Of a DNA stretch of 64,000 bases, positions 9,391-64,000 are shown one piece after another (within the stretch, counting starts at the first letter, position 1; each line of letters opens with the position of its first letter). The stretch covers positions 29,631,630-29,695,629 of the forward strand of contig OX453272.1 of NCBI GenBank assembly GCA_949710005.1, written 5' to 3'. The DNA is from Ricordea florida (Eukaryota; Cnidaria; Anthozoa; Corallimorpharia; Ricordeidae). Position numbers and translations under genes: made by a program. The notes beneath the pieces are model-generated. The model saw only the letters and a list, made by a program, of their open reading frames with translations. It was not told the origin of the DNA and searched no databases.

Positions 9391-9585
9391 ATGGCGACTG
9401 CGACGAGCAGTACGAAAACAAGACAACGCAAGCTCTCATTCACATCAACAATTCCGTTATTAAATCGTACAAGATCCATGACAGATCAGACCCTCTTAGG
9501 AGTATTAAACATACTCCGTATGGACGAAGGACAAGGTCAGAGTTTTATGGTGAAAGCAATCTTGCCTGATGGAAAACCTAGACTG
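9391..9585 (+). CDS. Exon 1: N-terminus and first strand of Ras-binding-like domain
   Basis: 65 codons, ending in phase 0 at donor CTG|GTAAGT. The Ser/Thr/Arg-rich start is followed by FMVKAILPDGKPRL, the first beta hairpin typical of Raf/TIAM-type RBD or RA ubiquitin folds. The ATG has a good Kozak context (AACATGG). Confidence 0.75.
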
Positions 9586-15500: not shown

Positions 15501-18500
15501 GCTCTGTACGATGTACTTTTAATTAGTATACACGCCTTTCTTTGAATCCCGCTAAATTTAAAAGCTTACTTTCAGTGCAAACGCTGGCAATATGATAGCA
15601 ATGTTAATAAATATTTCTCTGTGCGATCCACTAAGATCACCATATTTAAACGGTCATTTTGCGCTTGAGGCATAAATCCGAGTCGAATAAAAAAGGAAAT
15701 AGTCAGTATTCTTCGGTAAGGAGCTCAAACACGGTAACAAAGAGGTAATTACTTAGCGTTGTTTGTTCTTTTTTTACAGTTAAGTGCTGAACGTAATATG
15801 ACAATAAGAGATCTTGTGGCCCTCATATGCCAAGAGTATAACTTGTCAAACTATCAAGTGCGGACACTGCCGGAAAAAACTTTGTTAAGTCTTGATGCAA
15901 GTGCCACGACAGTGGAGAATGCGGAGATAGCTATCGAGGATGTCGACAGAAGGTTGTCAAATTTTCAGTTGGATAATCTTCATACAAGTGAGTGGATGTG
16001 TAAAGGGAAAATTTTAACCATTAAGGGATCTTCAAGTGAGATACAACGGTTTGACTGTGGCCAATCACAACAGGTGCTCACAGTCCAATGAGCCAATCAG
16101 AATTCAAAGCAAACGCGTGTCAGCAGAAAGCGCGGGAAAACGCCTGCGACGAAATCGGTTTCGTTCTTATTTTCTGAATTGGTTGTCTAGTGCCTGCCTT
16201 TTCAGCCAATCTTCTTTCGAAGTGATGCAAAACGAAAGTAACAGTGAACTGAAAACCGCTCTTCAGTGTAAATGACCAAAGAAACCTCCAAAAAATGTCG
16301 AATTCGTAGTGTGTACTTGGGCATTAGAGGCAGTTTAAGAGTTTTACATGTAAGTCGTGGAGAATGGTTCTTTCACGTTTCCGTTTTGCGAAGGACGGCA
16401 AGGAAACCTGCCAGATTTCACAAGGGGAATTCAGAGTTTATCGTGTTGCTCGTTACTACCATCAAAGCCATTATCACGTGTGTAATTAAGTTCACACATT
16501 GTATAATTTAATAACACTAATACTACAACTGATAAAAGTAATAATGACAATTCAATGGTGACGATAACTCAAGTCGATTAAAAATCCAGTGGAGTTTTAC
16601 AATATCTGTAGATTGTACGAAGGAAAATAACGAGGCCCCATTAGGGGTTTTAGGGATACGGGATATTTGCGAAAAAAATGATAGGGATACGGGATATTTC
16701 GGGGAAAAATTAAAGGGATACGGGATATTTAGAAAAGAGATAGTGGGATATCGAACGTCAAAGTTTTCTTTTTTGACAGAATAAAACAGGTTAATTGATC
16801 AATATGAAAGACGCGAAAAGTAAAAAAAAGTACTTGAAAATGCGAATTAATGTATTTCCCTAAGAAAAAACATTGTAGTCATCCTTCAAACCCTATTTGC
16901 AAACGATTTCTATTTTAAAGTATGAAACCCGCACCGGAAAATGTTTTACATTATTTGGTGATCGGACTTATCACATGCAGTGACGTCATGAGTATTGACT
17001 TGAATTATAGGGATACAAACTACGGGAATTAATGGGATACGGGATATTCAGACCCTCCCTAATGGGGCCTCAATAACAATTCCTCAATTTGTTATGTAAG
17101 ACTTCAGGTGATTCAACCGTTGTGGTCGGGTTCAGTTGTAGTATGACAAGCATTTGCATAGAGGCCTGAAGAAGGACATCCACTCAACACATTGCCTCAA
17201 ATAACAGTCGTTCATCGGTCATTGGACGACCAAAATTAGCTCATGTCCGACGAAATTCCAACTTTGGTCGGACTTTTTTTACCATGTTTTGTTTATTAAT
17301 GAAGATGAATAAAATACAACCTTTTTTCGGTGATGTCCGACTACATTTTTGTTTTGCCCGACCAAAGTATAGTCACTTGGTCGGACATATGTCCTTTCAA
17401 TAAAAAAAAAAATTATTTGCAGCCCTGAAATAGACTCAGAATTAGTTTGTTTTCTTTCAAAGCTTAGCCGGTTTGTGGCTCTTTGAGTGTGGCCTTCAAT
17501 CTGTTAAAAGAGCATTACGCTGTATTTTTCCTTTGTTTCAGAAACGGGGAAAAGGTGTTTACAAGGGATTTTACAGTTAAGGAGATTGACTTTTGGCATT
17601 TCATGTTGCAGTTAAAGATGCCAGACTGCGCTGTGTGAAGGAACTGGTTTATGCTGAAGAGGTTTTTCTGGAGTGTTTGAAGTGGCTATTTGAGTTATAT
17701 GGCGAACCGTTAAAGTAAGACAACTATCTGTAATATATATTGGTCTATCGATAATACTGAGTGGCATTCAATACGCTGCCGAAAACAATAAGTCCTCGAT
17801 CACAATAATAATAATAATAATTATAAATATTATTATATTTATATTGATATTATTATATTATATTTATAGTATATTATAAATATATTATATACCGGTATTA
17901 TGTTTAATAATATAGCTATGTTCTTACGCGCGCTCTGATTGGTCAAAAACCCATGTTTTATCAGAGTATAAAACATAGAAAAAGCGTTTTTTATTGTTTT
18001 TTGCGACATCACCTCTACGCGACAATTCTGTAAGAGACGGCGAAAAACATTTTCTTTGAAGAAATTCATGATGGAGTTCTCTGCGAAGCAGCAGAAAGTT
18101 TTGAAGCTGAGAATAATAAAACAAATGAAAAAGAAGAAACGAAAACAGTCGAGAATTTGGTATTAAATGGGGTCAGTTTGTCGATCTGTGTGCGTTGTTG
18201 TTTCTACTCGCGGCATGTAAACTCTATATCATAAAGTGAATAAAGAAGCCTAAGCCGTGTAATACACTGTGATAAAACACTTCGGGCATTTGAGAACACT
18301 CGAGAAATGTAGAAAACACTCGTCTGCGGCTTGTGTTTTCTACATTTCACTCGTGTTCTCAAATGCCCGTCGTGTTTTATCACAGTGTAATACACGGCTT
18401 AGACTTCTTTATTTGTTAAATATTATATTATATTTATATTATTATATTTATCATATCGTATGAGCTTAAGTGCAGACCGGAACTAAGCGAACCAAAATAT

Positions 18501-25167: not shown

Positions 25168-25237
<70 letters not shown>

Positions 25238-26051
25238 ATTCAGACGTACAAACACAGTATGTGAGTTTTCTTTCTTAAAAAAGTTCCATTGATTCTTTCT
25301 TACAAAGAGATGACCAATCATGGGTTACCACAGTTTATGGTTTCTCCATACTTTTAAATAAAGATTAGACCCAGAATGCACATTAATGGACAGATAGGGT
25401 GCGTTTAATCATTTAAGATAAAACAGTCTGTCAGTTTGGACTAAGCTTTGATTGAAAATTGTGGGTTTGCTTTTGATTGCTAAAAGGTCATAGTTAATAA
25501 CTTGTGTCGGAAAGGAAGGCCCGTTATTCTAGCGAGAACTACGAAAAGCACCCCAAATATGGTAACAAAAACTAAGGCCATGCTGTTGGTGCAGTGGTGA
25601 AAGCACTCGCTTCCCATTTCAGTGACCCGGGTTCGTTGCTCGCCGTCTCATGTGGGTTGAGTTTGTTGTCGGTTCTCTAATTGCTCTGAGAGTTTTTTTC
25701 TTCGGGCTCGCTGGCTTTCCCCCCTCACAGGTAACGTATGTGCCGAAACATAGCTTGTAAGGGACCTCGTGTCCTATTCTGTGTCTCCGGCCCTCGGAAT
25801 TGTCAGCTACCGTAGATAAACTTATATAAGATCGCAAAAGAAAGACGAGTTGGCAAATAAACTCCACGCGCCAGACTGTGTGAAAAATATGTGAATGGTT
25901 TAAATTAATTATTTTTGTTATGGATCTGTCAACATCATTTGGTTAGTTTTCAAGGAATGTGAACTAAGTTTAGAAAATATTCTTTTTCTGTCCGTCGTTC
26001 ATTCCATTAGCTATTTATACGTTCCACTGACAGTGATACCAGTTTATATAA

Positions 26052-26091
<40 letters not shown>

Positions 26092-26774: not shown

Positions 26775-26814
<40 letters not shown>

Positions 26815-40938: not shown

Positions 40939-41025
<87 letters not shown>

Positions 41026-53000: not shown

Positions 53001-56000
53001 CCGAGTTGTTAACAATCTTGTTTAAGAGATAGATACATATTTTCCGTCAGATTGTCAGACACGTGATGATGCTGATCATTGTGACGGATGGCACACTGGG
53101 TACCTTAAATTGATGATTTGACCCTCGTAGTGTCAAAGCAAATTTAATTTAAGTGCAATTCAGCCACTGTTGACCTGCTCCCAGCATGCACCGCTTGATT
53201 TCTCAGATGGTAGAGCATCGCACCGGTACTCTCGAGGTCATCGGTTCAGATTCCAGCGAAGAAATCGGTTCTGGTGTCAAATGTTTCTTTCTTTGTCATC
53301 TTTGATACTTCAGGGTATGTCCACGCAGGAGCGACACCTCTTCTTGTTTGATGATCTACTTCTGGTTGCTAAATCAAGGTCAGAATGATAACTGCATGTC
53401 ATGTGTTCATACTGAATCAGTACCAAAGTTTGCCCCACTCACCCCTACCTTCCCACTCACCCCTCCCTGCCCACTCACCCCTCCCTTCCCCGTCTCTCTC
53501 TATATCCGTAACGTTTCATTTCACTCCCACATATGATTGATGAATATGCACCGTATTCTTGTAACACAATATATTGTTAAGTAGTACCACAGTCCAAGAA
53601 CGTGCAAACAACGGCGTGTGTGTATTGCTCGGATCTAGATCATGTGACACACCTTTCCAGAGAATGTAAGCCATGTTCACCATCAACCAAGCTGATAACT
53701 TATACATAAATTTTCAAGAACTGTTTATGCTCATGCAGTTTAACCTTTTTGAAAAACTAACGTGTGCAAATAAATCGCAAATTGAACTCGAAACGTATAA
53801 TTTCTATTACCAACAAGCCTGGCCCAGGTTGCTTTGTGCACCTAGTGACGTGATGCAAAGTGTTTTGCACTGCAATATCTAACTTTCTTGAATTAAAATT
53901 CTTAGCGTCCGCGCTGTTTGTCTTTATACGTATATATGGTTTCTTTATGCTTACCATCATACTTATTATTCAGTCAAGCATTTCTCTAACCAACTCTCGA
54001 TTTTAGGACTTCTGTTAATCATTTCTAACTCTGTGTTTTTTTCAGGTCGACGTCATACAAGTTAAAACACCGAGTACGTGTTAGTGAAATCTGGTTGGCT
54101 GGTTGCCTTGATGACGTGTGCGAATCTACTAAAGTTACTGACAAATCGTTCGTAATAGGCTGGCCTACCACTAACTTTGTAGTAGCATTTAGGTAAGGAA
54201 ATTCTTTGGTTTCAGTAAGTTACATACAGGGTTATTGCAATAAGTGTTAATAAGTTAAACGCCTGTCATCTCTTAAATAGCTTCGTGTGCATGAGTAAAT
54301 CTGTAAAAGACGTATTTTTCGGCAGTGTCACAGGCAAACTCGTAAGAAAGCAAATACGGGTTCTCCCATTAGGAGTGGAGCCTACGACCTTCCGATTACG
54401 AGTTCGGACGCTCAATCACTGAACTATGCGAGACTCATGGGAGCAAGGCCATTAAATAATTGGGTTCATGGAACACGTAGTAAATCTTTTTTTGTAAGTG
54501 TTGTCCTTGTTGTTGTTGCTGTTTGTGATGCTGTTAGCACTGAATTAATCAAGTTTGTCATTGTTGTTGTTAGTTTTGGTCAGTAATATTGTTGTTGTTA
54601 GTTTTGGTCAGTTTAACAAATTGACGTCAGTTTTTTATGCGTCTGTCCTCTTATTGATGATAAATTGCGTCATAACATTGTCAAAGTTTGTTGTAGATCC
54701 ACTCGCCTATCGGCTCGTGGATCTACAACAAACTTTGACAATGTTATGACGCAATTTATCATCAATAAGAGGACAGACGCATAAAAAACTGACGTCAATT
54801 TGTTTTTTACAATAACAAAACGCGAAAAAGGTCAAATGAAGACTTAAATTAAAATTTTATGTGTCTGTACTCTTATTGATGATAAAAATTAGCCAATCAG
54901 CGCGCGAGAATTCGCTCAGTTATTGCAAAAAAATATTGTTGTTGTTGTTGTGTTGTTGTTGTTGTTGTTGTTGTCATTACTGCTGTTACATTTGTTGTAC
55001 TGTGGTAGGAGATTATTTGCATCCGTTGTTTGTGTTTTTTTTTAGTAGCACAGCTTATCCAAGTTATGGAAGACTCATACTTTGCAATTCAAGAAGTTTC
55101 AATTCTTACTCTTAAGCTTTTTCATTCCGTTTTATAACTTTATTTGTTTGTTATTCTTAGTTCGGTTGAAGAGAAAGATATCTGGCACAGCCTGTTATCC
55201 AAGTAAGTGATTTCAAGTGACATGATCGGTAGGTACCGAACTGAACCCCTTGTGGTCAATTTTTACTAACAAATAGGTCACAAACCAAAGGTCACGATTG
55301 CGAGTCACTGCTAAAGTAGGTGAAAACTAAAAATTTATTCTAGTCTTGGCTGCTATTCAAACTTGTGGTAAGTGATCTATCGATAGAACAGTGGCTTCTG
55401 ATTGTGACCCATGACCTTATGCCTGTGTTTTGAACCTTGCCAAGGACATCCATACCTCACTTAAAAAAGTGAAAATTTGTCCGAAATAAATCCAAACTGT
55501 AAATGATATGTGTCGACGCCTGGACCCTCAAGTTTTTTAGCATTTAGAGAGTTGCTTATATCTATTGGGGTTCAGCATGCCACAATCGCCCTCCAAGGAC
55601 TAGCGTCTACCGGCTGTGTGGCTACCTCCCTACCTCAGTCAGTTATGATACAGTAAAAATTGCACTTTTAATTCCATACTGCCGTATGATTTATGTTTTT
55701 CCTTCCCATGGCTAGTGTAAGGAAAAGTATAGGAAGCATTTCGTGTGCATCATAGGTCACGTGTTCTGGTGGTTTTTAGTTGGCATTTCGAGCGAAGTGA
55801 GAACAGTTTTCGGGGCTTCGACGTTTGTAATCGGCGGGTACGAGTGATTAAACTGAGACTAATCAGTTTCGTGTACCAGTTTTATTACACATCATTTCGT
55901 CCAATACGCCGTTAACTTGAAAATAAGTTTACCTCAGCAGATTTAAGAATTTCTCACACGACGAATTAGTCAGTGTTCCATTTCCATTTCCAGTTCCATT

Positions 56001-58995
56001 TCCATTTCGTGTGTCTAAACAAAAATTAAACGACCAGTCTATTAGTTACTAATTATTATTAATACTTAATTTCATTGCTGGTGATATACAAGCAATCATT
56101 TCAACACGCGGATTAGCTAAGTGCACGCTAGTCAATCCCAAACAGTACAGAAACTTGAAAATGAGTGCAGAAACGTGAAAATGAGTGCAGAAAATAAGTT
56201 AAATTTTTGCATATATATCATGATCATTAACATGTAATTTTGTTGGAGTGCAAGTTTGTAATACTAGACAAAAATGTACTTGTTCTCATTTATTCCAAAT
56301 TGAGCTCCAAACCATTTGATTACCTGTATTAACTCTTTCACTCCCAGAGATGATCAACACAGAAGTTCTCCTTTCCATAACACTACACTGTAAAGCAAAC
56401 TGATTATGAGAACTGCACAAAACAATCAACTGAAAGGTAATGAGTTGACCTTGTCCCAAATTCTCAAACTTTATTTGTAACAAAATGTATGGTACTCGCT
56501 TAGAGGAATTGCAACTCAGATCTAGGGAGTGAAAGGGGTTAACAAAGCAGGTTGTGATGTGCATGTTTTGTTGTAACTGGTGAATTAAACAGATCTTTGT
56601 AGTGTCGTATCTTTCTACACTCCAGGAGCCCATCACTGGGCTCTTGACACTGTCAACTGGGAAACTGAACCTTTTATGCACCTATCAATGTTAAGCCGGC
56701 GGGGGGGGGGGGGGAGTCAGGGCATGGGGTGGGGATTTGATTGTCTTTGTTGGCCCTTGGGTAGGGCATTTGACTGACCTTATGCTTCCGGGGGGGGGAA
56801 TATTTGAATCTTTCTTTGCCAGCCTTGGGATATTTGACAGCGATGTGCAGCCCGGGGTGGGGAAATTTGGTTGTATTTGACTGGAATGATTTGCCCGTGG
56901 GCAGGGAATTTGACGGCAAATTTTTCAAAAATGTCAAATCCCCACCCCATGCCCTGACTACCCCCCCCCCCCCGCCGGCTTAACATTGATAGGTGCATTA
57001 CAAGTCTGTTTTCTTCTGATAGTCGTAGTAGTTATTAATTTGAATAATTTTCCCTTTTATTCAGGTACATCAAGGAACAGAAGGACGTAGAAGAACCGAA
57101 AGCAGTCAACCTCAAAATTTATAACAGAGATATGGACTCCGCTGATTCGTTCGTTTATGTGAGTATACGCGACACGAAGCAAAGTAAGCTTTCTGAACAG
57201 AAGATTAACAACAGAAGTGCATATTATAGCGCCAAAAATGGTAACATGAATTTCCATTTGTTGTGGTTTTCCACGCGGCTTTGTGAGCTTCTGCTTGTCC
57301 ACGTTTAATGCGCCATCATTGGCGCGATAAAATACTTACAAAAACCTATTTTTTTTTCTTTTTGCATCTGCCTCTTTTGCGGTTATATGTCAGCTACTGG
57401 TTACTACACATAAGTTACACTTGAAATTCTCATTGATCGTTAATCGCGGCATATACTGTTGGCTTTCTCATCCCTTCACCCAGGTCGGGTTATCAGCAGC
57501 TCGTGTTTTCTGTGAAGATGTTAGTGGAAGCCTCCTTGTACACCAACTGATTTGTTCAGAAGAGAGCAGGTTTCTGACACGAAAGTAATGTCATCGGTGA
57601 CAAATTACTCCTTAATTTTGACGCGAAATTTCAGTGTTAATACTACTACATGAGAAATTCACTGTACGGCCCGCTAAATTCAAAAGTCTGTTTTGAGATA
57701 TAGTAAGTATCTTACAAACGTCGTTTTCTCAGTCCGTACTGTAAGTTGCGGATCCTCGTTTTTTCCTCTCGGATTTATCGTTCCCATGGTCTCTGCTCTG
57801 ATCCTGATTGAAGGAGGCATACCAGAGACCATGAGGACGAGGTTACTTGAATGTCTTCCCATTCATTCTATTTTGCCTTTCCATTTCTTTAGTCCAAGTC
57901 TTTCTCGGTCAGTAACACGGACGATGCAGCCGCTGTGGTTAAAATGTCACTTGAACAGTTCAAACTCCAGGTGAGATTTATTGTCGCTGTCATGACCTAC
58001 CCTTAAAGCAGCATTTGCTTGGCGGGTTAAAACCAGATCAAACGCAAAAGTTTGTATTATATTCCACCGTTAAAATTTTTTCACATCTTACTTTGTGCAT
58101 GAGCAAAAATGTGAAGTCCGTTTAAAGGATTCAGTGGACTCAAGGAAACTTTCCAAGAAACATGCGACGGGTTAATGTGGACCAGCTTTAAGCCGATTGC
58201 TCTTCTGTGCAAAATAAATTTGAAAGCTCTGTTGGGATAATTATTGAGTGTCTTGTTTGTTTTCAGCCTGATGATTATTCTGATTATCAACTGTGGGTGT
58301 TATCAGGGAAGGAAGATGGCGCGCACCCTTTGATAGGTGAGTTTGCGAGGTGAACAGTCAGGTTACACCGGTCAAAGTCACGTACTATTTGATTCTCTCT
58401 GTACGAATGAACAAAACGCATTCACATTGGAGCAAGCAGCAAGGGTCAGAAATGGAAAATTAAAACCAACGACACGAACGACTTAAGGCATCAGCTATAG
58501 CCACTTACCCTATACTTCCCGCATAACCAAGAAAGAAAATATTATCGCACGGATGACACAAAACAAGTACGGACGGTTCCGTTTGCTGGCAGCTTCAGTA
58601 ATGAATATTATTCGTCATTCCGACAAAGGACCAACGCCCGGAACGTCAGCTTTCCTTACGGCGGTAAAATTTACAATAACTCGTTTGATAAATCTATTTT
58701 GGTGTTTATCAGTTTCCCAATACTGACACAGTACCATTTCCTTTAGTTAGACTGCACTTTAAATAATATATATTATACTGTGCTGTATCTCAGTGCGTTA
58801 CTTTCTCCCTCAGGTCACGAGTTTCCTTTTGCCATTAAGATGAATCACATGAAGGAGGCAGCCATGACAGATGAGGATGGGTTTCCGTTTGACTTTGATC
58901 AACAGCTGCCGTGTATGGACCCTCTGTCGCCTGAGACACAATGTCAGTTTATTCTCAAGAAAAACAGAAAAATACCCACCAGACTCAACCTAGGT

Positions 58996-59026
<31 letters not shown>

Positions 59027-62000
59027 CGTGTTAAGTCAAATGGTGTGCGTTGCTTGAAAACCTCGGAAACTCTTTGGTCCCGAGAAAATAAACATTGACA
59101 TTTAAAGCAATCATTCTTGAAACTTATGCTGTTAGCATGTCTTTAGGGGAAGAAAGTCTTGCCTTCTGGCAAACGTTGGTGGGCTGAAATGCCTTTCTTC
59201 CAAAACTACATTGTCAATTATTGCGCCCGAAAACGTCCCGAATCGTTTCGGGACGGGCTTATAATTACGGATTTGTGTAGGAATGTCGCGCGTGCGCAAG
59301 GGGCTCGTGGACATTTGAAGACCATAGCACGTTTGCAGTGAATTACAGTGGCATGGAATAGGTAACAAATGGAGTAATTCATTAAAAATTCGTCCATTAG
59401 ATTGCTAGCTGCTCAATATTTTCTTTTGCAGAAGCACCCAGCGCACCCAGTAAACAGCGCTGGAAAAATCCCATAAAGAAATCTCCCATAATAAACTGGG
59501 CAATGCATAAGAAGACTGCTGGCTCTAAAGGCGGCTCCATAGATGTACAGTCAACAGGCTCTGGAAAGTAAGTTCCTTCGGAAACTTTCTTTACTTTGAC
59601 GAAAAAAATAACGAGATTTGTACGAGTCTTCCGAAAACTTTATCAAGACCGCTCGAACAGTTAGATCCCTGGGTTAACGAGAACTCTGAACCGGCTTGGT
59701 GTGGATCTTGAATTTGAAGCGAGATTATCAGGTATAAAAAAGTGTCCATTGTCTCAAAGATGTCCGCTACAATTGTACCTCTAATAGTTTTGTGACTCAA
59801 AGCAAATTTAATCGGTCACGTAAGCGCTGAGCTGAGTGACGGTCGTACTGAGAGAACTCTGTGCCAATTGAGTGACAGACTTGTCTACCCGTGTTATGTA
59901 TGCACACATCATGGGATATTACATACTTACCTACAAAGAAGTGGCCACCTGTACTTCTAGCTCTTTCATTATGTATGCTCACATGACGTGTTACATATTT
60001 TTTGGACCCAGGCTGTTTGGACTTCCGTTGAGTCAGTTGTGTTCAGACGAGGAGCCTGTACCCAAGGCAGTGCATGAGTTATTATTACATCTGTTCCGTT
60101 ATGGTCCAAATACGACGGGAATCTTTAGAAAGTCAGCAAATGCAAGGATTGCGAAGGAAATCAAGGTTGAACTGGACGAAGGTAAACGTTTTGAGAACTT
60201 TGGTAAACATATTAAAAGAAAGATGATCAGAAGCCGCGCGCGCGGTGCCGGTCGGGAAGGTCTCGAAAGGGGCCGGCTCGGCTGTGTGCCGCCGCCTTTC
60301 TGGGTCTCCTCCGCAAAAAATATTTTACTCATATTGTTACGAGCCAAACTGGTAAACAAATCTAATAAAATATGATGTGAAACTGTCACTTATAGTTGCA
60401 TCACTTACCTAAACTGGGTCGTCTTCTCTTTGCTCATTAGGGACGGACCATTAGAAAAGTGATGGGGGGCGGGGGCGGGGGAACCAAAAAAAATTCATGC
60501 AAGGGAAAATGCCTAGAAAAAAAATTCATGCAAAGAAGAAGGTAAAAAAAAAATTCATGCAGAAGGAACGTCCAATTGTGACTTTTTCACACGTAGTAAA
60601 AAAAATTCCTGCACAAGCAGTGAGCGAAAAAAAAAGATTCGTGCAAGCTGAAAATTCCCCACCCCCCCCCCCCATCACTTTTCTAATGGTTCGTCCCTTA
60701 TATAAACAATTCAATTTTGATTTAACCAGGGTAGTCTTGTTTGCCTAATATGGTATCAGTGAATGTCTTGGAATCAAAATTGAATTGGAATGTGAGAACG
60801 TTGGTGAGGCGAAAAAATAAAGAAATACAGAGGAAATACCACGGGATAAGGAGACCACGCAACTTTCCCGTGAGCTTAAGCCGGGTCACGTGATCAGAGT
60901 AGCCTGCGTAGCAGTCTTTTCCGTTTCCTCTAGAGCCAAGGGGAAGTCGCGCGAAGGCATGAGGCGAGAGCAAAAAGTTAGGAACGAGGGGAGGGTGGGG
61001 GGGAAGAAACTGCGCTGTCCAGGCTTCGCGATATGACTTTCAACATTCTTCTCGGCATCTTCTTTTCCACTTGTGCTTTTGTTCCTAAGTTCTTGGTCTT
61101 GTGTCGCAACGTTTCAGCAATCCTGCCCTCCTGATTTGAGTGTCACCTGAGGAGGGAAGGATTGCCGAAACGTTGTGACACAAGACCAAGAACTTAGGAA
61201 CAAAAGCACAAGTGGAAAAGAAGATGCTGAGAAGAATGTTGATGCAGAATACCACGTGCGCCCAACTAGAGAGTCTATTAAGATGTGACTTTCATTTCTG
61301 TTTCTCTTTGTAGGGAAAGTTTTGGATTTTGAAGACGTATCAGAAGTAGTTACTGCCTCTGTAATGAAGGTAGTCTCCCTGTTTCTATTTTCCTTTTTTT
61401 TTTCTCGGTGGCATCAAGTCTTGTTGCGGTAAGTATTTGTTGCAGGCTGTGGTTTGAGAGGTTCACCCATTAATAGAGTGGTCTGCGTTATAAATGTAGT
61501 CGCCGAGCTTTACCTCAGCTGTACTCTAGCCGTACTCATCCTTAGCCGTACTTCAGTGTTCTTAATTATCCCTAGCCCATGCTTCCTTTAGTGTCCTTAC
61601 TATGCGAGTGCCTGCACCAAGTACTTACCCTCGTTGCAGTTTGAAAATTGCGCTTGTAATTTGTTGTAGGAAGTGATGTTTAGTCTCAGAGTTAAATTTT
61701 AAGTGTATTTTGCAGGAATTTCTTCGCCGTCTTCCTGGCTGCATTTTCGAAAGCGAAAATTACGAAGATCTCATCGCCACCAACAGCATCGAGGACACAC
61801 AAGAGCGAGTCCGACAGATCAAGGGGTGAGAACATGATCCACGCATAATTTCTCCTTACTGTATCTGTATGAAGGATAAGAGTTTGAGTTGTTATTTTCC
61901 GTGGTGAGCCCCATCATTTATGTTAAATTAATCAAACACGATATTTTCCAGTGTAACATATTGAGAAATGTATGGCACTCACTTAGGACAGTTACCACTC

Positions 62001-64000
62001 ACGACATTGAAGTGCAGGAGCGAAAGTCGTGGTTTGAATCACTTTCCGTTTAATCATTTGTTTTTTTTTTGTTTGTTTGTCGGTTTGCTATAGGATACTT
62101 GAAGGAATTCACCGTTATAATAGAGAGTTGTTGAAGTGCTTTTTGTGCGTTTTATATCATATCGCGGACAATGCGGAGACAAATAATATGAACGCTTACA
62201 ATCTGGCAGTATGCGTGGCTCCCAGCATGCTGTGGGCGCCTAAAGGCTCAAGTATTCCTGCCACTGAACAATCACACGACGTTCCTCCCGTGATACAGTT
62301 CATTATTGATCACTGTGTTGAGATCATTGGTGAGGATGTTGTTACTGTATTAGGTGATCGCAGTGAAATTGTCGCTCGTCAAGCGGCTAGTGACTCTGAA
62401 GGTAGTATCCAGGACTCATGGACAGGCCTCAGTCAGTCCTCTACGGATGACGGGATAGAATCACCGGAGCCTTTGAGTCCTAAAGGAGAAAGGGCCTCTA
62501 TTCATTTGAGTGACTCTAATTTATATGTTACCAGCACACTCGCTGTTCACGCACCCAATAGGAGTATTAGCACACCGACCTCTCCTTGCGACTCGGGCAT
62601 CCCGTCGCCAAGTTCATCTCCTCCTCTTAAAAGGCACGACGTAGAGTTTTCTAGTCAACTTAGCGCTGCTTTCTACGAACCCCGTTCATCTAAAGGACAC
62701 TCGTCTCTTTCTCGGCGATGTTCGGAACCAATCGGACTGACGCCCGACTCTATGAAGCTACGTCTAAAGCGCGTTCGGAAATCGCCGAATTCCCGAAGAC
62801 AGCTCAGCAGTACAACAACGAGTGCTGAGCTAATAGAACACAAACATCCTCCAAAAACTACAGCCAGTGGCCGTAAACTTGAGACCGCTGTGCTGCGGCG
62901 GGCTCATTCACCACAAACTGTACGATTATTCCCTGCCACTCAAAACGCAACGCACTACCAGCGGCTTAACCCAGTACCGAGCTTTCCCGGGTCAGTCTCC
63001 CGAGCAACGGAAGTCAAACAAACTGTGCAGACACTCGGGTTAAGTTCGGACAATGCCGATAACAATTTAGTAACTCCTCCTAGCTCACCAGTATCTAAAC
63101 AGTTCCCTGGGAGGCCCCGGTCTCCGTCGCCCAGTCCCGATCAAGTTTTCCAGGCGGTTGATCGCCGTCGGCAACCCGCTGCGCCGTCTTATCAAGAGCA
63201 CATGCAGCGAAGGCGGGAAATGACTTCGAAGCCTTCGTTCTTCCAGGGCGCGGAGGAGAAAGAAGTTAAAGATTTTAACTCAAATAGAGAACCTTCGTCT
63301 CCAAGGGAACCTAAAGAATTTTGGGATTCAAAGGAAGTCGTACTTGCTCCTCGTGTGACAGACAGCGGCAGGTCACTGACTCATCACGACAGGTTGGAAT
63401 CAGAGAGAAGCGAGTCGTCATCCACTCCCAAAACACCTCTCACTCCAGTAAGCCAGCACGAGTATGTTTGGGAGCAACAGGGAGACGACTCCAGTACGAG
63501 CTCAGTTACCAGTCCTGGGGTCAGACGGCTCGAGCACTCGCCTTTCGGGCTAAATCTTAATCATAAAAGAAACTTTAGTGAAGGATCTTGCAAGAAATCA
63601 ACCGCCGAATCTGGAAGGAAAGTTTTCGGTCTTACGTCGAGCCATAGCTCAGGACAGTTGCGTACTCCAAGTAATTCTGTTTCTTCGTCTGGTTCAAACA
63701 CTAATTCTTCACTTACTCATTTCCCTCACTCTGAGTTCTTCCCACATGAGGCTCAAACGAAGACTCAGTGGGGACAACCCGTCGATTCTCGGGGAACTTC
63801 GGTTTCTGTTCCGAATACATCCCCGTTTCGTACTCGGAGAGGAAGCGCAACTTCGTCTTCGTCGTCGGTTTCTAGTTTGGACGATCGATCGAGCATCGGT
63901 GCGGACTCGACCTTTTCAGAGGGAAAAACGGACGTAACTCAAATTCGTGATATCAAGGAATTGCTCGGTGAAAATGCGCAAGCCAACGGACTGAAAATCA
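9391..64000 (+). CDS. ARHGAP20-like: ARHGAP20-like RhoGAP with DH, PH and RA domains (24 exons, 3' end outside window)
   Basis: Multidomain regulator of Rho-family GTPases. The RhoGAP domain should stimulate GTP hydrolysis by a Rho GTPase, and the RA domain should bind a Ras/Rap-type GTPase, probably at the membrane. Spliced exons: 9391-9585, 15780-15987, 17612-17714, 18631-18715, 19721-19766, 28804-28879, 31853-31955, 37377-37487, 38722-38766, 49163-49234, 51792-51880, 52464-52581, 53314-53378, 54046-54192, 55161-55202, 57065-57158, 57893-57970, 58267-58336, 58814-58993, 59432-59567, 60012-60181, 61314-61369, 61716-61825, 62094-64000+. All phases fit, with no internal stop over 1,435 codons. 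Approximate residues: Ras-binding-like 51-122, DH 137-325, PH 400-505, RA 512-635, RhoGAP 688-882, Ser/Pro-rich tail 883 onwards. Start: first ATG after an in-frame TAA at 9313, with A at -3 and G at +4. PH, RA, RhoGAP and the RRRSAP and RRCSEP motifs point to ARHGAP20. The DH domain is not part of vertebrate ARHGAP20 as I know it. Untested by transcript evidence. Confidence 0.88.
11447..11762. repeat. Composite foldback element
   Basis: Two inverted repeats lie side by side. TAATATACATGCAAAAATTT near 11450 pairs with the complement ending near 11594. AATCACATGATTT at about 11601 pairs with AAATCATGTGATT at about 11748. Related sequence, with GTCAATCCCAAACAG and GAGTGCAGAAA words, recurs at 56110-56330. 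Non-coding MITE-type repeat. Confidence 0.6.
12711..12899. repeat. TIR element family A, copy 2 (uninterrupted)
   Basis: The ends GGTTGTTTGTTGAGTTTGAT and TTCAAACTCAACAAACAAC form a TIR of about 40 bp. It shares ends and interior words with the split copy at 2541-3129 and so gives the uninterrupted structure of that family. Confidence 0.7.
15780..15987 (+). CDS. Exon 2: body of Ras-binding-like (ubiquitin-fold) domain
   Basis: 208 bases, phase 0 in and phase 1 out. Acceptor TTTTTTACAG, donor ACAA|GTGAGT. It encodes NMTIRDLVALICQEYNL and LLSLDASAT, followed by an acidic strand EIAIEDVD, which matches the helix and beta-strand pattern of Raf-like RBD and RA folds. A weaker donor upstream (AG|GTTGTC at about 15953) was not chosen because only the donor at 15988 gives the phase needed by exon 3. 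Confidence 0.8.
15988..17611. other. Intron 2
   Basis: Contains the TIR element at 16632-17071. Around 16080-16200 there are CCAATCAGA/GCGCG words of the kind seen in other MITE-like repeats here, but no clean ends. No coding sequence seen. Confidence 0.7.
16632..17071. repeat. TIR element family B, copy 1 (6-bp TSD)
   Basis: A perfect 15-bp TIR, GAGGCCCCATTAGGG at 16632-16646 and its complement at 17057-17071, is flanked by the 6-bp duplication AATAAC (16626-16631 and 17072-17077). The interior repeats AGGGATACGGGATATT at least four times. Copy 2 is at 20989-21172. Non-autonomous DNA transposon of unknown superfamily. Confidence 0.75.
17612..17714 (+). CDS. Exon 3: start of DH (RhoGEF) domain
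   Basis: 103 bases, phase 1 in and phase 2 out. It encodes RCVKELVYAEEVFLECLKWL, which aligns with CR1 of DH domains (xELxxTExxYVxxL), the conserved glutamate being residue 150. Acceptor TTGCAG, donor AA|GTAAGA. Confidence 0.85.
17715..18630. other. Intron 3
   Basis: A+T-rich, with TAATAA and TTATAT runs (about 17803-17890 and 18418-18450), and it contains the foldback at 18239-18414. The CGCGCTCTGATTGGTC motif at about 17930 suggests that the foldback belongs to a larger MITE of roughly 550 bp. Confidence 0.65.
18239..18414. repeat. Foldback element, ~80-bp arms
   Basis: AATAAAGAAGCCTAAGCCGTG at the left pairs with CACGGCTTAGACTTCTTTATT at the right, with near-perfect pairing through GTAATACACTGTGATAAAAC and a loop of about 12 bases. 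Non-coding. Confidence 0.75.
18631..18715 (+). CDS. Exon 4: DH domain, continued
   Basis: 85 bases, phase 2 in and phase 0 out. It encodes NMLFATLEPICTLNAALYAK, typical of the DH helix containing the L/I-F-x-N/T-hydrophobic-E motif. Acceptor TCCTGTAG, donor AAG|GTAAGT. Confidence 0.85.
18716..19720. other. Intron 4
   Basis: Contains a MITE-like repeat at about 19376-19668 and otherwise nothing recognised. Confidence 0.65.
19376..19668. repeat. MITE-like repeat ending in a palindrome
   Basis: It starts with CAGGTGATTATACAAAATCG and CGCGCTCTGATTGG. It ends in an inverted repeat in which AACAATTATTCGCC (about 19580) pairs with GGCGAATAATTGTT (about 19656) and GATTCTCGGTGAATA pairs with its neighbour. 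Non-coding; outer limits approximate. Confidence 0.55.
19721..19766 (+). CDS. Exon 5: DH domain, continued
   Basis: 46 bases, phase 0 in and phase 1 out, encoding LEEAANNWNTVSTAVG. Short, but flanked by a clean acceptor (CTTCGTAG) and donor (GTAAAG), and the phase is exactly what exons 4 and 6 need. Confidence 0.72.
19891..20033. repeat. Inverted repeat (MITE-like)
   Basis: GTAAAGATTTCCCCACAGGT pairs with ACCTGTGAGAAAATCTTAC, and the arms continue through AGTAGGGACC and CATTATGCAT. Spacer of about 60 bp. Non-coding. Confidence 0.65.
20989..21172. repeat. TIR element family B, copy 2 (6-bp TSD), nested in the Helentron-like insert
   Basis: The ends GAGGCCTTGTTAGGGG and CCTCCTAATAGGACCTC match family B (16632-17071). 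They are flanked by the 6-bp duplication ATTAGC (20983-20988 and 21173-21178). The interior repeats a CGACATG/ACGACGA-like word unrelated to the interior of copy 1. Confidence 0.65.
21976..23340 (+). pseudogene. Decayed Helitron-like replication/helicase N-terminal region
   Basis: Blocks in different frames match the Helitron_like_N type of protein: YIWTCCDQLWYRSSVTKC near 21990; CHSNLHVSNGKLPICS near 22145; SFAPGEGNRSF with DKESECASFPTIY near 22770; LRKCNTKGKKYTTDNLKSDD near 22970; DLFGMIRQLGNPTWFCSLSA near 23120-23180; LNRLVDNKKYNDDKID; and DPATCVRNFEH near 23300. Stops and frameshifts separate the blocks (for example at about 23100 and 23280), so no intact protein is made. The C-terminal helicase and Rep catalytic region is not found. 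21508-21819 is open (about 100 codons) and may be a more N-terminal piece, but I do not recognise it. Confidence 0.75.
24045..24281 (+). mobile_element. Penelope-like/retrozyme-like element, copy 2
   Basis: A 13-bp duplication, CGACAACAACATG (24032-24044 and 24282-24294), fixes the ends. It starts TATTGTGGGGATAGTTTC and ends CCCATTTTCTTGTG, like copies at 2589-2939 and 49701-49943. A TATA-like TCTATATAAATTG lies at about 24144, some 40 bp before a hammerhead-like core (24180-24213). That arrangement fits a Penelope-type terminal repeat carrying promoter and ribozyme. No ORF. Confidence 0.65.
24180..24213 (+). ncRNA. Hammerhead-ribozyme-like core
   Basis: In order: GCT (possible stem I), CCGACGA (24183-24189; consensus CUGANGA with U4 replaced by C), an unpaired A, GGGC-TAAC-GCTC (stem II with one G-T pair), GAAA (24203-24206), CGTC (ACGT would pair between two molecules as stem III, with GTC as cleavage site) and AGC, which pairs with GCT. 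The U-to-C change in the core may make it inactive. Structure proposed by eye only. Confidence 0.4.
24733..24850 (-). repeat. Fragment related to the foldback at 11447
   Basis: ATGCAAAAATTTTATTTCAA followed by CTGCACTGGTTGGGTTTAAT and CTCTCAGCCAATCATCGCG matches, in partly reversed order, words at 11460-11520. It is probably another degraded MITE copy, interrupted downstream by the SINE at about 24890. Confidence 0.4.
24890..25236 (+). mobile_element. tRNA-derived SINE with (ATT)n tail
   Basis: The tRNA-like head has a Pol III A-box (TGGCGCAGTGGTGAGAG, from 24902) and B-box (GGTTCGATTCC, 24945-24955), followed by a tRNA-unrelated body (GTTTTTCTCCGGGCACTCCG) and the tail AATAAAGTTC. A long (ATT)n run follows at 25170-25236. 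Related elements lie at 25577-25870 and 30653-30930. Its LINE partner is not identified, though a LINE 3' end with the same ATT-type tail lies at 40560-41025. Confidence 0.8.
25577..25870 (+). mobile_element. tRNA-derived SINE, second copy
   Basis: Degenerate A-box TTGGTGCAGTGGTGAAAGC at about 25585 and B-box-like GGTTCGTTGCT at about 25630. The body has TTCTTCGGGCTCGCTGGC, then AGGGACCTCGTGTCCTATTC and TCAGCTACCGTAGATAA, shared with the copy at 30653-30930. Its 3' part is included in the tandem duplication described next. Confidence 0.75.
25695..26417. repeat. 723-bp tandem duplication, unit 1
   Basis: The block from the SINE body through a (GT)16 run (26058-26089) to CTGCCTCCAG is followed head-to-tail by a second copy at 26418-27137. 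By eye I found no difference, including the microsatellite length. Confidence 0.85.
26418..27137. repeat. 723-bp tandem duplication, unit 2
   Basis: Second unit, offset by exactly 723 bases. It carries a headless copy of the SINE 3' part and an identical (GT)16 run (26781-26812). The open frames at 26180-26476 and 26903-27403 are simply the same sequence read twice and look non-coding. Confidence 0.85.
28804..28879 (+). CDS. Exon 6: DH domain, continued
   Basis: 76 bases, phase 1 in and phase 2 out. It encodes SEFDLFWVSYSDYYLTFRVA, like the DH segment FxxLxxxYxxYxxNxxxA. Acceptor GTTTCAG, donor AAC|GTGAGT. Confidence 0.85.
29015..29115. repeat. 21-bp minisatellite, about five units
   Basis: Units of the form ATAGCATTGTTTATCACGCTG, varying at a few positions each. 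Short, non-coding. Confidence 0.75.
29432..30017 (+). repeat. Host repeat C, copy 2 (no insertions)
   Basis: Runs continuously from GAGCAAACGCGCGCA through ATACTACCGAAGCAAATAA and GGCTCGACAACAGGTCGG to CGTCGTACATGAACTATAG. It is the intact counterpart of the split copy in intron 5 and shows the pre-insertion sequence there. It appears truncated at its right end relative to copy 1. Confidence 0.75.
30173..30675 (+). repeat. 23-bp tandem array of a SINE A-box (about 22 units)
   Basis: The unit GGTTGGCGCAGTGATGAGAGCAA is, apart from its last bases, the tRNA-like A-box head of the SINE that follows. About 22 units in register, differing by single bases (GTGATG, GTGACG, GCGATG variants). Sub-blocks of identical variants suggest several rounds of local expansion. 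Because 23 is not a multiple of 3 and the unit has no stop on the minus strand, all three minus frames are open; these are not genes. Confidence 0.9.
30653..30930 (+). mobile_element. tRNA-derived SINE downstream of the A-box array
   Basis: The last array unit is the A-box of this SINE. The B-box GGTTTGATTTCC is at about 30703. The body has ATTTCTCCGGGTTCTCCG, AATGGACCTCGTGTCCTATT and TCAGCTACCGTAAATG and ends in an A-rich AAATAAATAAAAG tail at about 30925. Confidence 0.8.
31115..31235. repeat. Polypyrimidine tract (~120 bp)
   Basis: Almost pure C/T on the + strand, with repeated CTCTCCCCT-type words. It could form triplex (H-DNA) structures; no function is evident. Confidence 0.8.
31853..31955 (+). 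CDS. Exon 7: DH domain, up to the CR3 motif
   Basis: 103 bases, phase 2 in and phase 0 out, encoding REHDSEFVSFVNSQRG and then LDFLLLKP, the start of the CR3 motif (LLLKPxQRxxRY). Donor CCA|GTAGGT. Confidence 0.85.
31956..37376. other. Intron 7
   Basis: Mostly unique sequence. Contains a poly-C/poly-A run at 32465-32493, a candidate alternative first exon at 35215-35334, and a short CCCAGC hexamer run at about 37029-37066. No other element is recognised. Confidence 0.7.
35215..35334 (+). CDS. Candidate alternative first exon (basic N-terminus), in intron 7
   Basis: ATG followed by exactly 40 codons ending at donor CGG|GTAAGG in phase 0, the phase of exons 8, 9, 10 and 11. It encodes a strongly basic peptide (KRRKRLFKFGNRLRKSF, AKKWKRSF) suited to membrane phosphoinositide or nucleic-acid contact. 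Spliced to exon 8 it would begin inside DH. Spliced to exon 11 it would give a PH-RA-RhoGAP protein like vertebrate ARHGAP20. The ATG context is weak (T at -3). No transcript evidence, so this is a hypothesis. Confidence 0.35.
37377..37487 (+). CDS. Exon 8: DH domain, CR3 and following helix
   Basis: 111 bases, phase 0 on both sides, encoding IQHVGECERILSNLLEKTPE and then HRDYAELENVVKKFRQ. It continues LLLKP from exon 7. The usual QRxxRY is replaced by QHVGECE, but the following LLxxLLxxTPExHxDYxxL pattern of DH domains is kept. Acceptor TGTTTAG, donor CAG|GTTTGT. Confidence 0.85.
37488..38721. other. Intron 8
   Basis: Contains the TIR element at 37740-38033. The rest shows nothing recognisable. 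Confidence 0.7.
37740..38033. mobile_element. PIF/Harbinger-like MITE, copy 1
   Basis: The TIR GGGACGGACCATTAGAAAAG at the left and its complement at the right are flanked by the 3-bp duplication TAA (37737-37739 and 38034-38036). The interior repeats AAAAAAATTCATGCA-like words. A G-started TIR and a TWA target duplication are features of PIF/Harbinger. A second copy is at 60440-60697. No ORF of its own. Confidence 0.75.
38722..38766 (+). CDS. Exon 9: last DH helix
   Basis: 45 bases, phase 0 on both sides, encoding MVKEREEEIMAAENE, a charged helix matching the end of DH domains. Acceptor CTGCTGTAG, donor GAG|GTAGGG. Small, but it fits in phase and pattern. Confidence 0.72.
39660..39766. repeat. 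Small inverted repeat
   Basis: CCGGTGTAATATAATTAATTC at the left pairs with GAATTATATTACACCGG at the right, with a spacer of about 65 bp. MITE-like, non-coding. Confidence 0.6.
40560..41025 (+). mobile_element. 5'-truncated non-LTR retrotransposon 3' end
   Basis: The frame from 40586 encodes HNTRGSGHNLLLPKVRTE and FYFNGSKLFNNIASEMK and stops after about 65 codons. This matches the C-terminal tail typical of LINE reverse transcriptases (RxxxxLxxPxxRTExxKxSFxYxGxxLWNxL). It is followed by a 3' UTR containing GGCCCTCATTGATAGCAGC and an (ATT)n tail from 40939 to 41025. The rest of the element is missing, as expected from 5' truncation at insertion. Possibly an L2/CR1-like family. Confidence 0.65.
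42062..42133 (+). other. ATG-to-donor segment, weak candidate alternative first exon
   Basis: ATG, 24 codons without stop, then a near-consensus donor AAA|GTAAGT in phase 0, which would fit exon 10. The peptide (MDQFLQFSGSFVGCLAGLVV...) resembles nothing I know and is partly hydrophobic. Could be chance. Confidence 0.18.
43140..43430 (-). repeat. tRNA-Thr-like repeat (probable SINE or tRNA pseudogene)
   Basis: On the minus strand 43224-43296 folds as a cloverleaf: acceptor GGCTTGA/TCAGGCC, D-arm GCTCAGTTGGTAGAGC, anticodon loop CCGGTAT, T-arm with GGTTCGAATCC, followed by a T7 run (43212-43218) able to stop Pol III. The anticodon would be GGT, which eukaryotic Thr tRNAs do not normally use, position 33 is C, and the anticodon stem has a mismatch. 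It reads better as a tRNA-derived repeat than a working tRNA. Confidence 0.55.
43850..43980. repeat. Region rich in ATCGAAC words
   Basis: About eight AATCGAAC/GTTCGATT words in both orientations within 130 bp. Looks like a degraded simple or foldback repeat; limits uncertain. Confidence 0.45.
49163..49234 (+). CDS. Exon 10: DH-PH linker
   Basis: 72 bases, phase 0 on both sides. It encodes KIYDIQDRFPSDNLGL, which resembles the post-DH linker (KxxEIQxRF) of RhoGEFs. Acceptor TTTTTTTAG, donor CAA|GTAAGT. Confidence 0.82.
49235..51791. other. Intron 10
   Basis: Contains the Penelope-like insertion at 49701-49943 and a poly-T run (about 51600-51623). No other structure with clear ends. Confidence 0.7.
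49701..49943 (+). mobile_element. Penelope-like/retrozyme-like element, copy 3, palindromic
   Basis: 13-bp target duplication with one mismatch: CAAACCATGCAAG (49688-49700) and CAAACCTTGCAAG (49944-49956). It begins TATTGTGAGCATAGTTTC, then TTTCTAAAGAAACTGGTGCT, then an inverted arm and a forward arm meeting at about 49845. The forward arm has the same CCGACGA, GGGCTAACGCTC, GAAACGTC core. It ends CCCAATTTCTTGTG. Confidence 0.65.
51792..51880 (+). CDS. Exon 11: RRRSAP segment ahead of PH
   Basis: 89 bases, phase 0 in and phase 2 out, encoding NSRRRSAPTTAIKAALVGKM. The RRRSAP motif (51813-51830) precedes the PH domain in the ARHGAP20 family as well, and supports the assignment. It fits an R-x-x-S-x-P 14-3-3 type motif. 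Confidence 0.82.
51881..52463. other. Intron 11
   Basis: Short intron with a TA microsatellite at about 52116-52134. Nothing else seen. Confidence 0.75.
52464..52581 (+). CDS. Exon 12: first strands of the PH domain
   Basis: 118 bases, phase 2 in and phase 0 out, encoding LLPLRIFIREGPVQLST, the first PH strand in this family. Acceptor TGTTACAG, donor ACG|GTATGT. Confidence 0.85.
52582..53313. other. Intron 12, with a degenerate tRNA-like repeat at its end
   Basis: At 53193-53262 on the + strand, CTTGATTTCTCAGATGGTAG resembles a D-arm/A-box and GGTCATCGGTTCAGATTCC a T-arm/B-box. It is a degraded tRNA-derived repeat only about 50 bp before exon 13. A G-rich run lies at about 52695-52714. Confidence 0.5.
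53314..53378 (+). CDS. Exon 13: PH domain, strands 2-3
   Basis: 65 bases, phase 0 in and phase 2 out. It encodes STQERHLFLFDDLLLVAKS, almost the diagnostic ARHGAP20 PH block (QERHLFLFND-VVAK). The donor AG|GTCAGA is weaker than the others (C at +3). Confidence 0.88.
53379..54045. other. Intron 13
   Basis: Includes three imperfect copies of a CCCACTCACCCCTCCC-type unit at 53430-53490. Otherwise unremarkable. Confidence 0.7.
54046..54192 (+). CDS. Exon 14: PH domain, strands 3-6
   Basis: 147 bases, phase 2 in and out, encoding SYKLKHRVRVSEIWLAGCLD and then KSFVIGWPTTNFVVAFR. The FVIGWPTTNFV block is highly characteristic of ARHGAP20-type PH domains. Confidence 0.92.
54193..55160. other. Intron 14
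   Basis: Contains a degraded tRNA-like repeat on the minus strand (about 54354-54440; complement has AGTTCAGTGATTGAGCG and GGAAGGTCGTAGGCTC), a long hairpin (54617-54805) and a GTT microsatellite (about 54932-54975). Confidence 0.6.
54617..54805. repeat. Near-perfect hairpin element, ~86-bp arms
   Basis: AAATTGACGTCAGTTTTTTA at the left is repeated inverted at the right. The arms look fully complementary over about 86 bp, with a loop of about 14 bases (TCGCCTATCGGCTC). MITE-like, non-coding, apparently young. Confidence 0.8.
55161..55202 (+). CDS. Exon 15: PH C-terminal helix
   Basis: 42 bases, phase 2 in and out, encoding SVEEKDIWHSLLSK, the PH C-terminal helix with its conserved tryptophan. 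Donor AA|GTAAGT. Confidence 0.9.
56110..56330. repeat. Copy of the 11447-type repeat
   Basis: Shares GTCAATCCCAAACAG, repeated GAAAATGAGTGCAGAAA and AAATTTTTGCATATATATC words with 11447-11600, followed by a diverged second half ending near ATTTGATTACCTG. Confidence 0.55.
56677..56997. mobile_element. TIR element with G-tract ends (TTA duplication)
   Basis: The TIR TGCACCTATCAATGTTAAGC continues through CGGCGGGGGG and is matched exactly at the right end. Flanked by TTA (56674-56676 and 56998-57000). The interior has more pairing words (GTCAGGGCATGGGGTGGGGA and its complement) and repeated ATTTGACTG/GATTTGATT words. Non-coding; a 3-bp TTA duplication would suit PIF/Harbinger, but the TIR start is unlike the family at 37740. 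Confidence 0.7.
57065..57158 (+). CDS. Exon 16: end of PH and start of RA domain
   Basis: 94 bases, phase 2 in and phase 0 out, encoding KAVNLKIYNRDMDSADSFVY, the first RA strand. Donor TAT|GTGAGT. Confidence 0.9.
57159..57892. other. Intron 16
   Basis: No repeat or gene recognised. Confidence 0.65.
57893..57970 (+). CDS. Exon 17: RA domain, continued
   Basis: 78 bases, phase 0 on both sides, encoding SKSFSVSNTDDAAAVVKMSL and then EQFKLQ, the strand-helix segment (TxxVxxxTxxxEVxxxxL) of RA domains. Confidence 0.9.
58267..58336 (+). CDS. Exon 18: RA domain, continued
   Basis: 70 bases, phase 0 in and phase 1 out. It encodes DYQLWVLSGKEDGAHPLIG, a hallmark block of the ARHGAP20 RA domain. 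Confidence 0.93.
58337..58813. other. Intron 18, with a decayed Penelope-like repeat copy
   Basis: About 58615-58750 matches the Penelope-like family in degraded form: CCGACAAAGGACCAACGCCC, GGAACGTCAGC, CTTACGGCGGTAAAAT, AACTCGTTTGATAAA. Ends are not defined. Confidence 0.55.
58814..58993 (+). CDS. Exon 19: RA domain, end
   Basis: 180 bases, phase 1 in and out, encoding HEFPFAIKMNHMKEAA and later ETQCQFILKK, which closes the RA fold (CQFILK). A (GA)12 run begins about 9 bp after its donor. Confidence 0.93.
59432..59567 (+). CDS. Exon 20: RA-RhoGAP linker
   Basis: 136 bases, phase 1 in and phase 2 out. The linker contains KKSPIINWAMHKK; an IINWAF-like motif occurs at this place in ARHGAP20. 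Otherwise Ser/Gly-rich. Confidence 0.88.
60012..60181 (+). CDS. Exon 21: RhoGAP domain with arginine finger
   Basis: 170 bases, phase 2 in and phase 1 out, encoding KLFGLPLSQLC, VPKAVHELLLHLFRYGPNT and TGIFRKSAN. The arginine finger is R727 (AGA at 60127-60129), inside the canonical GIFRxSG/A motif. Confidence 0.95.
60440..60697. mobile_element. PIF/Harbinger-like MITE, copy 2
   Basis: Same TIR (GGGACGGACCATTAGAAAAG) and same interior ATTCATGCA words as 37740-38033, flanked by TTA (60437-60439 and 60698-60700). It differs from copy 1 by an internal deletion of roughly 40 bases and by poly-C/G length. Confidence 0.75.
61041..61241. repeat. Foldback with hammerhead-like words
   Basis: CAACATTCTTCTCGGCATCT at the left pairs with its near-complement ending at 61241, arms of about 90 bp. 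The right arm has CTGAGGA (61147-61153), GCCGAAACGTT (61164-61174) and AAGACCAAGAACTTAGGAAC. The stem II between them would be only 2 bp, so ribozyme activity is doubtful. Confidence 0.6.
61314..61369 (+). CDS. Exon 22: RhoGAP domain, continued
   Basis: 56 bases, phase 1 in and phase 0 out, encoding GKVLDFEDVSEVVTASVMK, ending at the lysine of the LKxFLRxLP motif (K763). Confidence 0.92.
61716..61825 (+). CDS. Exon 23: RhoGAP domain, continued
   Basis: 110 bases, phase 0 in and phase 2 out, encoding EFLRRLPGCIFESENYEDLI. It keeps the arginine after K763 (R767) and the LP step; the usual EPL is GCI, as in ARHGAP20-type domains. Confidence 0.93.
62094..64000 (+). CDS. Exon 24: end of RhoGAP and long Ser/Pro tail (open at window edge)
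   Basis: Acceptor TTTGCTATAG, phase 2 in, then 635 further codons without a stop to 64000. It completes RhoGAP with RELLKCFLCVLYHIADNAE and YNLAVCVAPSMLWAP, including the catalytic-site asparagine N836 (62200). The tail is Ser/Pro/Arg-rich, low in hydrophobics, and probably disordered. It contains RRCSEP (62713-62730), RKSPNSRR, TPPSSPVS, TPKTPLTP and a late SSSSSVSSLDD run. RRCSEP-type motifs also occur in the vertebrate ARHGAP20 tail. Large last exons encoding the tail are common in this family. Confidence 0.93.

Follow-up and report, generated by a model that had tools for sequence, protein, structure and literature searches.

A predicted ARHGAP20-type gene of Ricordea florida with Ras-binding and DH domains upstream of its PH, RA and RhoGAP domains

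The DNA analysed here (the window) is a stretch of 64,000 nucleotides of the Ricordea florida assembly GCA_949710005.1, contig OX453272.1, positions 29,631,630 to 29,695,629 of the forward strand. It holds a plus-strand chain of 23 exons, from 9391-9585 to 62094-64000, which is in phase and stop-free for 1386 residues inside the window. When 10 kb of downstream sequence was added, the reading frame closed at window coordinate 64131, 131 bases beyond the window. The complete predicted protein has 1429 residues and ends in ESYV. An earlier note on this DNA had described a single continuous, phase-consistent exon chain. The chain itself stands, but a Ras-binding domain in exons 1 and 2 had been overlooked, and the gene extends just past the window end.

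Exon 1 (9391-9585) contains the start ATG, a basic N terminus and the first strand of a Raf-like Ras-binding domain (RBD), and it ends in phase 0 at the donor CTG/gtaagt. The remainder of the RBD (Pfam PF02196) lies in exon 2 (15780-15987). The DH (RhoGEF) domain begins in exon 3 (17612-17714) with helix 1 and the CR1 Glu, and continues through exon 4 (18631-18715), the 46-nt exon 5 (19721-19766), exon 6 (28804-28879) and exon 7 (31853-31955), which has the CR3 motif LLLKP at its end. CR3 continues (IQH) into helix 6 in exon 8 (37377-37487), and exon 9 (38722-38766) encodes the end of helix 6, with a Glu at the position of the conserved Asn. Exon 10 (49163-49234) encodes the DH-PH linker KIYDIQDRF. 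The PH domain takes up exon 11 (52522-52581, first strands), exon 12 (53314-53378, with QERHLFLFDD), exon 13 (54046-54192, with FVIGWP) and the 42-nt exon 14 (55161-55202). The RA domain starts in exon 15 (57065-57158), runs through exon 16 (57893-57970) and exon 17 (58267-58336, with DYQLWVLSGKED), and ends in exon 18 (58814-58993), which also begins a linker. Exon 19 (59432-59567) continues this linker and has an IINWA motif that is presumably also present in human ARHGAP20. The RhoGAP domain is spread over exon 20 (60012-60181, arginine finger GIFRKSAN), exon 21 (61314-61369, catalytic Lys in ASVMK), exon 22 (61716-61825) and the start of exon 23 (62094-64000 at the window end), which then encodes a Ser-rich tail up to the stop at 64131.

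The four signature motifs that the earlier note had quoted for ARHGAP20 were sought by exact search in the three plus-strand frames, and all were found, at 53326 (QERHLFLFDD), 54149 (FVIGWP), 58282 (DYQLWVLSGKED) and 60118 (GIFRKSAN). The remaining exons were found by eye in the longer plus-strand open reading frames (ORFs) or by a splice-site scan first. For exons 5, 14, 16 and 21, the search was limited to candidates of fitting phase; exons 14, 16 and 21 each came first in their candidate lists, and exon 5 ranked third of 10. Phase also guided the choice among alternative sites for the exon 11 acceptor (52522) and for the donors of exons 6, 15 and 19. For exons 5, 14, 16 and 21 and these four splice sites, agreement in phase therefore does not count as independent evidence. 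By a generic splice score, the 22 donors used rank in the best 5.3% of the window's GT sites, and the 22 acceptors in the best 13% of its AG sites.

Several other features lie in the introns. A tRNA-Thr (GGT) gene is present on the minus strand of intron 9 (43223-43295; found by ARAGORN, and by Rfam with 60.6 bits). A weak tRNA-like match at 54361-54433, also on the minus strand, scored 31.6 bits against a gathering threshold of 29 and was not called by ARAGORN. Intron 5 contains a perfect direct duplication (25695-26717), with identical 300-nt copies at 25695 and 26418 and a spacing of 723. A minisatellite in intron 6 (30168-30676) consists of about 22 copies of a 23-bp unit, and the minus-strand reading frames across it, the longest of 261 aa, look spurious. 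Near-perfect palindromes at 61040-61242, 54615-54804 and 49756-49942 have arms of 88 to 100 nt and loops of 3 to 11 nt and resemble foldback elements; an arm of the palindrome at 49756 also pairs with 24193-24280. Introns 8 (37721-37938) and 20 (60421-60635) share a dispersed repeat, which aligns over 154 nt at 90% and 73 nt at 77% identity.

In the spliced protein, Pfam recognized RBD, RhoGEF (DH), RHG20_PH, RA and RhoGAP in this order, each above its curated cut-off. The RBD (residues 53 to 118, E = 7.8e-6) spans the junction of exons 1 and 2 and scored 26.2 bits, only just above the cut-off of 25.7; scored alone, the RBD piece reached 32.3 bits. Compared with PDB chains, this piece retrieved no credible solved RBD, only repeated-ubiquitin pieces (2.5e-5, whole chains) and chance rows. 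The RhoGEF match covers residues 142 to 312 (E = 2e-22, 80.7 bits, cut-off 27.6) and corresponds to exons 3 to 9, where the earlier note had placed a DH domain. RHG20_PH follows at residues 358 to 449 (E = 2.7e-36, 124.1 bits, cut-off 27.7), RA at 469 to 549, between PH and RhoGAP (E = 4e-11, 43.8 bits, cut-off 21), and RhoGAP at 656 to 800 (E = 5.9e-33). The domain search thus bore out the four domains proposed earlier and added the RBD. The PH domain also matched Pfam SOS1_NGEF_PH (E = 3.9e-11), a PH type that takes its name from DH-PH proteins, as did the PH of a human ARHGAP20 sequence used for comparison (E = 1.6e-7). These matches hint weakly at a DH-PH origin of the ARHGAP20 PH.

To judge the DH match, we built a profile from seven PDB DH sequences (intersectin-1, Tiam1, collybistin, P-Rex1, BCR, ECT2 and ECT2L). 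The row from the window was left out of the profile, though the references had been aligned jointly with it. When the six-frame ORFs of at least 20 aa, 2232 in all, were searched, the profile placed exons 8, 7 and 3 on top (20.1, 11.3 and 9.1 bits), and these three are colinear with it. Rows 4 to 8 were chance matches of 8.5 to 4.4 bits. Exon 4 came in row 9; its 4.2 bits fall short of the top reversed-ORF control (5.4 bits). The 46-nt exon 5 raised the DH score to 89.9 bits, compared with 60.4 bits without any exon at this place and 59.7 to 66.8 bits with each of nine rival exons. The Pfam match, the ORF-wide profile search and the score gain from exon 5 lead us to reject a chance DH.

The DH domain departs from the references at two conserved positions. 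The helix-6 Asn (of INE or VNE) is a Glu here, but it is Asn in all six references that cover it (the seventh row stops short), and the profile alignment agrees. The third residue after the KP of CR3 is a His, whereas all seven references have an Arg or a Lys. The CR1 Glu is kept (E16, invariant in all eight alignment rows), and the Lys of LLLKP in CR3 is present; this Lys itself differs in four of the seven references (T, S, R and Y). Mutating the helix-6 Asn of a DH domain generally abolishes exchange. Exchange activity is doubtful in this protein because its helix-6 residue is Glu; the kept CR1 Glu and CR3 Lys suggest that some exchange activity is possible. We take E1047 and N1232 of Tiam1 to be the aligned CR1 Glu and helix-6 Asn. 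Both contact Rac1 in a reported simulation, in which N1232 bonds to R66 (PMC7884829). Obscurin DH constructs, which have changed conserved residues, are described as giving no exchange in vitro (PMC10118190). However, one study reports that GEF activity is absent from the DH of BCR (PMC5727386), which keeps the Asn, so the Asn alone does not predict activity. From the aligned residues, we regard the DH as likely, not proven, to be dead for exchange.

The other domains place the protein with ARHGAP20. Among PDB chains, the best match of the RhoGAP domain was human ARHGAP20 (3msx, 1e-37), followed by p50RhoGAP (4.1e-21), a ranking that covers only families with a PDB chain. In the alignment to p50RhoGAP, the arginine finger and the Lys are kept, and we take these to be the catalytic pair. 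The human ARHGAP20 sequence used for comparison differs from 3msx at one position over 189 RhoGAP residues. ARHGAP20 has GAP activity on RhoA that is under the control of Rap1. The catalytic pair of RhoGAP domains is described as an Arg and a Lys (PMC8305018), and 3msx appears among listed RhoGAP-RhoA complexes (PMC12240320). One table of substrates gives RHOA, RAC1 and CDC42 for ARHGAP20 (PMC7281527), which leaves room for targets other than RhoA. Caenorhabditis elegans RGA-2, named as Arhgap20 in one paper, is presented there as a GAP that holds RHO-1 off in the epidermis (PMC13072950), which fits a GAP role for an ARHGAP20-type protein. A search for relatives in prokaryote genome contigs, where contaminating animal DNA might have turned up, confirmed none of 13 pattern matches.

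As an alternative to one gene, an RBD-DH gene could end near exon 9 or 10 and an adjoining ARHGAP20 gene start near exon 11. The 10.4-kb intron 9 (38767-49162) at the DH-PH border would suit such an arrangement, as would human ARHGAP20, which in the sequence used for comparison starts about 85 residues before its PH and has no RhoGEF or RBD match. However, a phmmer search of PDB chains aligned intersectin-1 in one piece (E = 1.1e-13, query 8 to 254 of 324). This alignment runs unbroken across the DH, the linker and the first PH strands, with exons 8 to 12 inside it, and so covers the linker of exons 9 to 11, where a gene border would fall. This result argues against two genes. In addition, junctions 8/9, 9/10, 10/11 and 11/12 are all phase 0 (the exon 11 acceptor having been chosen for that), and exons 9 and 10 both end in good donor sites. 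Ten long non-exon ORFs, out of 113 ORFs of at least 75 aa, were compared with gene families, five of them from intron 9, and gave no match apart from one chance row (0.072). On the ORFs tested, we reject the idea that intron 9 houses another gene, nested or separate. We consider two adjoining genes very improbable, and the alignment to intersectin agrees with the earlier note in favoring one. The sequence evidence thus supports one ARHGAP20-type gene with a DH upstream of PH-RA-RhoGAP. This one gene might still use alternative promoters, giving a long form with all five domains and a short one, like that of vertebrates, with PH, RA and RhoGAP. Long introns precede exons 6 and 10, and the short form is known from human; both points favor this arrangement indirectly, and we regard it as possible but rather doubtful.

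Judged by its PH, the ARHGAP20-type gene is single-copy. Across the 538-Mb genome, a search with RHG20_PH to an E-value limit of 10 listed 11 rows; two of them exceed the cut-off, and both are exons of this gene. A search for a DH-PH paralogue found none elsewhere in the genome at E up to 1, as all 11 matches were the window's own exons. We also compared a genome-wide list of RhoGAP matches (33 rows, E up to 0.001) with one of RhoGEF matches (34 rows, E up to 0.01). The two types occur on one strand within 60 kb at one place, on C6, and no further place was found within 300 kb. The DH exons of the window are missing from the RhoGEF list because they are too short to pass alone, so this census overlooks divergent or finely split genes. 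Only one of the 33 RhoGAP rows, C11:6143163-6143621, spans almost the entire profile in one piece (1 to 147 of 148, E = 1.2e-45); the open reading frame around it is 1075 aa long.

The place on C6 holds a separate BCR/ABR-like gene. With a BCR sequence as the tblastn query, 10 pieces (E up to 0.01) matched C6 from 31249379 down to 31198618 on the minus strand. One stretch of this gene is presumably a C2 domain, and the other pieces match DH, PH and RhoGAP. An exon border of the C6 gene seems to fall at the helix-6 Asn. With the same query, the window yielded no match even at an E-value limit of 1, and C2 is absent from the nine Pfam families matched in the window protein at E up to 1. A BCR/ABR orthologue is ruled out by the missing C2, by the failure of BCR to match here and by the existence of a distinct BCR/ABR-like gene on C6.

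We think it probable that the gene encodes a Ras/Rap-responsive RhoGAP with the order RBD-DH-PH-RA-RhoGAP-tail, in which the DH serves mainly as a structural, regulatory or Rho-docking module. In this scenario, the RBD and RA would recognize Ras-family proteins loaded with GTP, and the PH would bind membrane lipid. Binding through these domains would bring the RhoGAP to the membrane, where it may switch off RhoA-like GTPases. ESYV fits what we take to be a class I PDZ ligand, and the two Ras-type binding domains, the lipid-type PH and this C terminus together suggest recruitment to membrane complexes. The DH would be an old DH-PH module that has kept its overall pattern and lost the helix-6 Asn. 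Because of this loss, it is more likely to dock a Rho protein, or to keep the whole protein under control, than to catalyze nucleotide exchange.

The earlier note had inferred that the ancestral animal gene was a combined GEF/GAP and that vertebrates lost the DH part. A combined GEF/GAP is supported only in part: a DH is present and the Arg and Lys of the GAP are kept, but the Glu at the helix-6 Asn makes GEF function doubtful. For a DH that vertebrates would have lost, the SOS1_NGEF_PH matches of both PH domains speak weakly. In a working dual regulator, the DH would activate one Rho GTPase, and the GAP would switch off another or the same one, as reported for BCR/ABR. The DH exceeds its Pfam cut-off and keeps the CR1 Glu and the CR3 Lys, it aligns to intersectin in one piece with linker and PH, the GAP residues are intact, and BCR is described as both GEF and GAP (PMC6505627). 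Against this stand the Glu, the His in place of the basic residue after the CR3 KP, and the report that the BCR DH gives no exchange even with its Asn (PMC5727386). On balance, we consider a working dual GEF/GAP unlikely.

A wider reading is that animal ARHGAP20 started out with five domains, RBD-DH-PH-RA-RhoGAP. It would then form a second lineage of dual GEF/GAP proteins, next to BCR/ABR, that receives two inputs from the Ras family and carries a PDZ ligand at the C terminus. The DH would still act on a Rho GTPase; the protein of vertebrates would be a truncated relic that keeps a DH-type PH. To this history, too, we give a low probability. Few animal regulators combine an activator-type and an inactivator domain for Rho; BCR and ABR are the ones usually cited. 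One paper calls BCR unique for combining GEF and GAP (PMC6505627). If the wider reading were true, a second, unrelated lineage, linked to Ras by two of its domains, would show more than one origin for antagonistic pairs of this kind, and it would explain the source of the vertebrate ARHGAP20 PH. The gene would also be a natural test of the role of a DH once the catalytic Asn is gone. Among the matches listed in a literature search, which is a thin test, we found no description of an ARHGAP20 with a DH; proteins of this type may well be annotated already.

Returning to the reading that we prefer, a RhoGAP with a mainly noncatalytic DH, the protein can be set beside several known systems. Human ARHGAP20 (RARhoGAP) has ARHGAP20-type PH, RA and RhoGAP domains in the identical order, but the human sequence used for comparison has about 85 residues before the PH and no RhoGEF or RBD match. 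The DH-PH of intersectin-1/2 is the closest among PDB chains, linker included (1.1e-13), but the DH here does not have the Asn of the intersectin VNE. To our knowledge, intersectins have no RhoGAP, RA or RBD. TIAM1/2 and PLEKHG5 have an RBD upstream of DH-PH, like the protein here; we know of no RhoGAP or RA in either. TIAM also carries a PDZ domain. Unlike the protein here, TIAM is described as having two PH domains (PMC7915224). BCR and ABR likewise combine, in a single chain, a DH-PH with a RhoGAP downstream of it, and BCR is reported to end in the PDZ-binding STEV (PMC6505627), as this protein ends in ESYV. In contrast to them, the protein here has no C2 match but has an RBD and an RA. We know of no RhoGAP in obscurin. 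Obscurin differs as a giant muscle protein, but its DH-PH is alike in having altered conserved DH residues, with no exchange found for the constructs described (PMC10118190). If the DH of the Ricordea protein is inactive, it joins obscurin, and perhaps BCR, as a DH kept for a purpose other than exchange.
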